Origin: Acetobacteraceae bacterium
Lineage (GTDB): Bacteria; Pseudomonadota; Alphaproteobacteria; Acetobacterales; Acetobacteraceae
Length of the DNA: 64,000 bases
Assembly (NCBI GenBank): GCA_025352375.1
Contig: JANXTL010000092.1
Location: 1 to 64,000 of the forward strand
Direction: 5' to 3'
Positions 19,611-21,310 of this stretch are shown piece after piece. The position numbers and the translations under genes were made by a program. Within the stretch, counting starts at the first letter, position 1, and the number at the start of each line of letters is the position of its first letter. The notes under the pieces are model-generated. The model did no database searches. It was not told the DNA's origin and saw nothing but the letters and a program-made list of their open reading frames with translations.

Positions 19611-20945
19611 TTAAGCCGCCGCGATCCGAAGGCGGATAGATGCCCTGGCACGGCCGATCAAGGGAAGCAGCGCCTCTAACGCCGGTCCATGTTCTTCGCC
19701 GGTTAACGCCAGCCGCAACGGCATCAACAACGCGTCGCCGACCCGGCCCGTCGCCTGCGCCAAGGCGTCGGTCCAACGGCGCCAGACCGAATCGTCCCAC
19801 GGTTCCGGTGGCAGCAGGGCCTCAGCTTCCGATAGGAACGCGCCTTCGCCATAAATCACGGGGGGCACGATGGTCCCCGCCACAACCTCCCACCAGCCCC
19901 GCACCTCGTTCAGCAAATCCAGACTGCCGCGCACCGCCAGCCAGAATGCCTCGGTCGCGCCGCTGGGTAGCCGATCGGCGATGGCGCCGAAATCCACGCG
20001 ACTGAGCGCACGCCGGTTCAGCGACAGCAGTTGCGAAGCATCGAACCCAGCGGCCGTCTGCGACAATCGGCTGAGGTCGAAGGTTCGGGCCAGATCGTCC
20101 GGCGTGGCGGGTTCGCCTGAAGCCGGTAAGCCGACGCGGGCCAGACATGTCGCCAAGGCGGTCGGATCCACGCCGTCGCCGCGCAACGCGCGAACCGATA
20201 GGCTGCTGGCCTTGCGCGCCAACCGAACGCGGCCTGTGTCCGCCAATGCCGGCAGATGAGCGAATTGCACGAGCGGCGGCTTGCCCGTCAAAGCTTCCCA
20301 CAGGTCGAGCTGCACGCCCGTGTTGACGGCGTTGTCCTCACCGCGAATGACGAGGGTTATGCCGGTTTCGATATCGTCGACCACGCTGGCGAAGAGCGGA
20401 GTCGCAGTGCCATCGGCGCGCACCACGACGGGATCGGACACGGCCGTCAGCTTGGCTTGCCGCGGCCCCGCGATTTGATCGCGCCATTCCAATGTGCGCG
20501 GCGACAGCAGGAAGCGCCAATAAGGGCGCTTGCCGTTGGCCTCGGCTTTGGCGCGCTGTTCGGCGGTCATGCGCAGCATGCCGCGGTCGTAGACGGCTGA
20601 TTTACCGCGCTTGAGCTGCTGGTCCCGCTTGGCGCGCAGCTCGTCGTCGCCCTCGAAACAGGGGTAAATACGGTTCGACTGCCGCAATTTATCGGCGGCC
20701 TGGGCGTATAGGCTCAGCCGGCCGGACTGTAGGAAGGTTTCATCCCATGCGACGCCCAACCATTGCAGGTCGTGGGCGATAGTCTCGGCGAAGGCCGGGC
20801 GGGCGCGGTCCCGATCGACGTCGTCGAACCGCAGCAGCATATGGCCACCGTGACGCCGAGCATGCAGGAAATTGGCGAGTGCGACCCTGGCGCCGCTGAC
20901 AAAGAGGTGACCGGTCGGGCTCGGGGCAAACCGGACGCGGGTCAT
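19611..20945 (-). CDS. gltX: glutamyl-tRNA synthetase-like protein with eroded motifs
   Basis: 444 residues collinear with bacterial GluRS: VRFAPSPTG start, LLRFDDVDRDRARP, YPCFEGDDELRAKRDQQL, ITLVIRGEDNAVNTG and an all-helical C-terminus. However, the class I HIGH equivalent (normally LHVGNAR) reads LFVSGAR, and the KMSKS equivalent (normally LSKRxGSLS) reads LARKASSLS. RGEDH is RGEDN. ATP binding should be impaired, so this may be a divergent second GluRS or a pseudoenzyme. Its ATG overlaps the upstream stop (ATGA). The symbol denotes family, not proven activity. Confidence 0.8.
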   Translation of the reverse strand: MTRVRFAPSPTGHLFVSGARVALANFLHARRHGGHMLLRFDDVDRDRARPAFAETIAHDLQWLGVAWDETFLQSGRLSLYAQAADKLRQSNRIYPCFEGDDELRAKRDQQLKRGKSAVYDRGMLRMTAEQRAKAEANGKRPYWRFLLSPRTLEWRDQIAGPRQAKLTAVSDPVVVRADGTATPLFASVVDDIETGITLVIRGEDNAVNTGVQLDLWEALTGKPPLVQFAHLPALADTGRVRLARKASSLSVRALRGDGVDPTALATCLARVGLPASGEPATPDDLARTFDLSRLSQTAAGFDASQLLSLNRRALSRVDFGAIADRLPSGATEAFWLAVRGSLDLLNEVRGWWEVVAGTIVPPVIYGEGAFLSEAEALLPPEPWDDSVWRRWTDALAQATGRVGDALLMPLRLALTGEEHGPALEALLPLIGRARASIRLRIAAA

Positions 20946-21310
20946 TCGTCGTCACCACTGTCATCGTCGTCCCGACGGGGATCGAGAGCACGCCAGTCGC
21001 GTTCCTCGCCGCCGGCGCGGTTGTCGACGAAGTCCCCCAGTTCGGTCGCGCTGCGCCACCCTCCCTGTTCGGCGTCTACGACAAGGGCGTCCTCGCCGAA
21101 GGCGAACCAGGATTCGAGGACGTCTTTGGTGGACATGCCGGCTCCGCGGCATAGTTCAACGGAGTCCCGCACGTAACGGCGGGCGAAGGCGTTGGCTTGC
21201 ATGAGAGTAGGAAATCCGCCGACTTCCTCGACGATATTGTCCTCGGCACCGCCGGAGAGGTCCAGAATGCGGACCCGCCAGCCTCCGTCGGGGGCAAAGA
21301 TGTCGCTCAT
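20942..21310 (-). CDS. hypothetical acidic protein coupled to gltX-like gene
   Basis: 122 residues without a recognised domain: a predicted mixed alpha/beta N-terminal part (GGWRVRILDLSGG, PTLMQANAFARRYVRDSVELCR, LESWFAFGEDALVVDAE) and a very acidic tail (DDDDSGDDE). It has no signal peptide. The stop overlaps the start of the gltX-like gene by ATGA, so the two are translationally coupled. Confidence 0.7.
   Translation of the reverse strand: MSDIFAPDGGWRVRILDLSGGAEDNIVEEVGGFPTLMQANAFARRYVRDSVELCRGAGMSTKDVLESWFAFGEDALVVDAEQGGWRSATELGDFVDNRAGGEERDWRALDPRRDDDDSGDDE

Follow-up and report, generated by a model that had tools for sequence, protein, structure and literature searches.

A GluRS2-derived protein with degenerate catalytic motifs in a GlnRS-containing genus of freshwater Acetobacteraceae: a probable pseudoenzyme under purifying selection

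The HxGN motif is the mark of proteobacterial GluRS2 (Dasgupta and Basu, PMC3927822), for which the same authors argue a separate (chimeric, transferred) origin. tRNA-Gln is the only tRNA charged by the assayed GluRS2 enzymes of H. pylori and A. ferrooxidans, and GluRS2 and GlnRS rarely coexist, Mesorhizobium being one such case (PMC3927822). The protein described here, GltX2, shares the domain layout of the alphaproteobacterial GluRS2 of this HxGN type, and its sequence, tree position, fold and gene neighbourhood mark it as an orthologue, but it has lost the HIGH, RGEDH and KMSKS motifs and co-occurs with GlnRS. A second GluRS-like protein without charging of tRNA-Glu or tRNA-Gln was reported from Thermotoga maritima (PMC3927822); that protein was put down to a duplication of GluRS1 in hyperthermophiles, in an account that involves neither motif loss nor a takeover by GlnRS. 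HisZ, a paralogue of HisRS and regulatory subunit of HisG (PMC9437257), is likewise a non-catalytic bacterial synthetase paralogue kept as a regulatory partner, but it is of class II, belongs to another family and has a known partner. GluQ-RS (YadB) is a GluRS paralogue with a role beyond standard charging, but it is catalytic and lacks an anticodon domain, and the genome studied here has a separate copy of it. Phosphorylation of GltX by HipA has also been described (PMC7029023). Single pieces of the present case thus have precedents in HisZ and the inactive GluRS2 of T. maritima; the open-licence literature, which omits most subscription papers, held no description of the case itself, a GltX2 with dead motifs. 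Here we present the features of this protein, its distribution and an explanation for its retention.

The window analyzed is a stretch of 64,000 nucleotides from an Acetobacteraceae bacterium (contig JANXTL010000092.1, assembly GCA_025352375.1). The initial annotation placed the open reading frame correctly; it starts with ATG and contains zero internal stops (Table 1). Its product matches the class I Glu/Gln catalytic domain (PF00749, 171.6 bits) and, in the C-terminal part, an anticodon-binding domain (PF19269, 31.4 bits), and stays under the cut-off of the NCBIfam model gltX_bact (TIGR00464; 258.2 vs 289.95 bits). The AlphaFold2 model is confident, with residues 239-244 in the KMSKS loop as the sole segment with a pLDDT below 50. 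The best PDB matches of the model are GluRS structures, the C-terminal anticodon-binding part being included in the fold, and the top match is 2cfo, a non-discriminating GluRS (TM 0.86, E 5e-31). Alignment against type 1 and type 2 GluRS, which the initial annotation had proposed, placed the protein on the type 2 side: it is 55-61% identical to the best canonical GltX2 of near genera vs 37% to GltX1 of its own genome. These same values rule out a recent duplicate of the housekeeping gltX. Sequence identity, position in the tree, fold and gene neighbourhood together establish orthology by descent, and the protein is an orthologue of GluRS2 (GltX2), not of GltX1 or GluQ-RS.

Table 1. Features of the gltX2 locus within the window.
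Feature	Coordinates	Strand	Remarks
gltX2-derived ORF, putative GluRS2-type pseudo-synthetase, 444 aa	19611..20945	(-)	intact; PF00749 + PF19269; AF2 pLDDT 90.8
HIGH-motif region, residues 14-20, LFVSGAR (canonical LHVGNAR)	20886..20906	(-)	His15 lost in 21/21; G17 and N18 replaced too
RGEDH-motif region, residues 201-205, RGEDN	20331..20345	(-)	His205 lost in 21/21; R201 kept in all
KMSKS-loop region, residues 239-247	20205..20231	(-)	K244 lost in 21/21; S243 lost in most
First anticodon-binding domain, residues 311-365	19851..20015	(-)	largest conservation rise in the genus
122-aa ORF, uncharacterised, upstream, translationally coupled	20942..21310	(-)	stop overlaps gltX2 start as ATGA

The motif strings LFVSGAR, RGEDN and LARKASSLS (the last at residues 242-250) read exactly as the initial annotation had quoted them, and the strings that it expected instead (LHVGNAR, RGEDH and LSKRxGSLS) are those found in canonical relatives, which carry LHVGN(AR), RGEDH and LSKR. 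The HIGH signature of His plus Gly is replaced by FVSG. A comparison set of 63 canonical GltX2, taken from other genera and other families, showed no departures of this type. A search of 24 genomes of the genus yielded 21 full or nearly full gltX2 genes, two C-terminal pieces at contig ends and one genome, G002 (80% complete), in which the gene was not found. All 21 orthologues lack the HIGH His, the RGEDH His and the KMSKS Lys; the HIGH His is replaced by Phe in 14, Leu in four, Tyr in two and Thr in one. Independent assemblies of many species show the same changes, which rules out a sequencing or assembly error. Among other genera of the family, 29/29 inspected GltX2 are canonical. In a quick tree, the copies of the genus form a monophyletic group inside the family (SH-aLRT 100) whose stem measures 0.29 changes per site, so that the motif change is most simply explained by a single origin. 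Identity to the copy of the window falls to 46-60% in the most distant copies. Dead-motif GltX2 is therefore a property of this whole genus of freshwater Acetobacteraceae and not a one-off.

The assembly that contains the window (98% complete, 355 contigs) encodes four members of PF00749: GltX2, GluRS1, GlnRS and GluQ-RS. The second gltX that the initial annotation had suggested looking for is thus present as a canonical GluRS1 (HIGG, KLSKR), and GlnRS matches TIGR00440 with 702 bits. Genes for tRNA-Gln (UUG, CUG) and tRNA-Glu are present, and GatB is encoded too. GlnRS was found in 22 of the 24 genomes of the genus (the two without it are 84% and 77% complete), and GatB is retained in 23, with a 64% complete genome as the only one lacking it. 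Of 150 genomes sampled from the order, 4/4 members of the genus and 0/146 others had GlnRS; GltX2 occurred in 149 of the 150. Among 190 Alphaproteobacteria, GltX2 accompanied GlnRS in only 3 of 26 genomes vs 137 of 164 without GlnRS (Fisher p 6.8e-13, which serves as a guide only, because the genomes are not phylogenetically independent). This mutual exclusion fits a GltX2 that acts as the tRNA-Gln-charging enzyme and is replaced by GlnRS. GlnRS permits the loss of the motifs and does not compel it, since the remaining two of these three genomes, G079 (L044, L082) and G143 (L083, listed with 5% contamination), which belong to other families, have GlnRS together with a canonical GltX2, as in the Mesorhizobium case. 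Regarding the glnS genes themselves, one member of the genus (G020; 86% complete, 7% contaminated) gave two full-length matches, G020:C48 and G020:C208, perhaps through contamination, and the ORF adjoining glnS in the genome of the window (L001:2593-3261) was judged by eye to be Hint-domain-like (CFVAGTRLATESGEVAVQSLRVGDRVRAV).

The gene directly upstream of gltX2 encodes a protein of 122 residues. It occupies this position in the loci of the genus and in 29/29 other loci of the family, where gltX2 is canonical, and occurred in no other family among the 190 genomes of the class. The 4-nucleotide overlap with gltX2 is available in 20/21 loci of the genus, and the junction of the last one contains a run of N. 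Four broken-up assemblies (G340, G002, G014 and G015) yielded no full gltX2 and no 122-aa gene, a result of little weight for the question of whether the latter persists without gltX2. Within the genus the 122-aa protein is more conserved than GltX2. Profile searches of Pfam and NCBIfam gave zero matches above cut-off; a folded structure is predicted for the protein (pLDDT 87.6), and its best match in a PDB fold comparison, an ERH-like fold (E 0.05), was not significant. Presence of the gene beside canonical gltX2 across the family indicates that the operon and the partner are older than the loss of catalysis.

We consider it likely that GltX2 of this genus is a pseudoenzyme, freed from its charging role by GlnRS and kept for a non-catalytic function, perhaps exercised with the 122-aa protein. 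The canonical GltX2 of other Acetobacteraceae most likely supplies the Glu-tRNA(Gln) that the GatCAB route turns into Gln-tRNA(Gln). With GlnRS present in the ancestor of the genus, this task would have become dispensable, and the ATP/adenylate site (HIGH, RGEDH, KMSKS) would have eroded afterwards. The folded body, the first anticodon-binding domain above all, would have been held by purifying selection because GltX2 would also have a non-catalytic function that it performs with the coupled 122-aa protein. Both the loss of charging and this order of events are inferred. One of the two readings in the initial annotation was a paralogue that is catalytically dead and has taken on a new role; a second canonical gltX, GlnRS, GluQ-RS, the genus-wide degeneration and the purifying selection all agree with this, but the protein did not arise by recent duplication of gltX. 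The role may also be an old second one that outlived the enzymatic one, rather than new. It is conceivable, though we hold it only tentatively, that GltX2 of Acetobacteraceae has from the start served a second, non-catalytic function together with the 122-aa protein, and that GlnRS stripped it of the enzymatic role here, leaving that function alone.

Regarding the nature of the retained role, conservation along the protein was compared with that in canonical family members, using domain names that we take from general knowledge of GluRS structure. Column identity at residues 311-365 is 0.74 in the genus vs 0.58 in canonical family members, and the shift relative to other regions is pronounced (MWU p 6.6e-9). 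In the KMSKS and SC-fold regions, variability is higher in the genus than in the canonical members, and conservation of the CP1/acceptor domain is near the canonical level. Because gltX2 is coupled to the 122-aa gene and constraint has shifted towards residues 311-365, binding of the 122-aa partner is the first guess and tRNA binding the second. That the retained role involves this partner is our best guess, although a cautious one; binding of tRNA-Gln or tRNA-Glu without charging is somewhat less probable, and an unrelated partner is the third alternative. A further reading does without the 122-aa protein altogether and takes GltX2 as a tRNA-binding factor alone, serving in sequestration, as a chaperone or as an aid to modification of tRNA-Gln or tRNA-Glu. 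The rise in constraint on an anticodon-binding domain and the near-canonical CP1/acceptor domain would suit such a factor, but the C-terminal part has lost one near-invariant residue, N341, its net charge is lower by about 4.5 units, the basic RKGK stretch that many canonical copies carry is missing, and the conserved coupling to the 122-aa gene would be left unexplained. We regard this reading as unlikely, if the best of the rivals to a pseudoenzyme with a partner.

Less probable still is a synthetase that continues to work, perhaps slowly or in a specialized way, on some tRNAs or under some conditions only, with an unusual ATP site that has Arg for the KMSKS Lys and Phe/Ser for the HIGH His/Gly. 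The residues of the amino-acid site (R5, D41, R47, R201) are mostly retained, gltX2 is under strong selection, and the KMSKS Lys is usually exchanged for Arg (18 of the 21 sequences, with Gly in one and a deletion in two), so that charge is preserved; the protein of the window has R244 at this position and keeps the basic residues R241, R244 and K245 in the loop. Loss of the HIGH His alone may also be tolerated, since an unrelated alphaproteobacterium without GlnRS (G027; L028 / L201) has Gln there. Its GltX2, with LQAGNGR for LHVGNAR, is otherwise canonical and is possibly another altered GluRS2 or a case of a tolerated HIGH substitution; a congener, G163 (L200), has a canonical GltX2. Against a working enzyme stand the joint alteration of the HIGH His and Gly, the RGEDH His and the KMSKS Ser and Lys across the genus, and the supply of tRNA-Gln and tRNA-Glu by GlnRS and the canonical GluRS1. 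In two species (G007 and G004), moreover, both the KMSKS loop and the DDxDxxR stretch are gone although the reading frame is open. The copy on the longest branch of the genus (G019, L079:7745-9856) has an insertion after the KMSKS region with the frame kept. Among 105 positions that are near-invariant in the 63 canonical GltX2, the genus keeps 84 and loses 21, and 12 of these 21 belong to HIGH, RGEDH, KMSKS or neighbouring active-site positions. Residues gained specifically by the genus were considered as an argument and set aside, as the 25 positions of a first count came to 7 against family members and were mostly mild.

Selection on gltX2 was estimated by pairwise Nei-Gojobori counts; in several pairs the synonymous sites are close to saturated. 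Most close pairs within the genus gave a dN/dS of 0.06-0.14, and the most degenerate pair (G007/G004) about 0.22; for the same pairs, gltX1 gave 0.04-0.11 and glnS 0.08-0.11. The values for most close pairs, together with the intact frames of the full-length copies, rule out a pseudogene. The other view in the initial annotation, of an enzyme on the way to loss, was not supported either, since every full-length copy in the genus has an intact ORF and dN/dS differs little from that of gltX1 and glnS, which are working genes. A relic under loss, kept by its operon position or for too little time to have disappeared, would accommodate the faster change of gltX2 than of gltX1 (84% vs 94% identity between G000 and G016), the relaxed SC-fold and KMSKS regions and the missing gene in G002, but is very improbable in view of the low dN/dS, the intactness of full-length copies despite their divergence, a domain more conserved than in active relatives, and the downstream position of gltX2, because of which the 122-aa gene has no need of an intact gltX2.

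A pseudoenzyme derived from GltX2 and kept with the 122-aa protein therefore remains the preferred explanation. Non-catalytic synthetase paralogues are known, yet the shift in their role is usually guessed. In this family the likely trigger (GlnRS), the state before (other sampled genera, with their canonical GltX2) and the state after (dead motifs under purifying selection) are visible side by side. The case allows one to test cleanly whether a housekeeping synthetase can have a separable second function, and flags the 122-aa protein as a candidate partner. Annotation pipelines may label GltX2 of the genus as glutamate--tRNA ligase, and models of tRNA charging could be led astray by that label. 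If the explanation is true, these bacteria would possess a conserved module of two genes that is based on a dead synthetase, and the genus would be a natural experiment.
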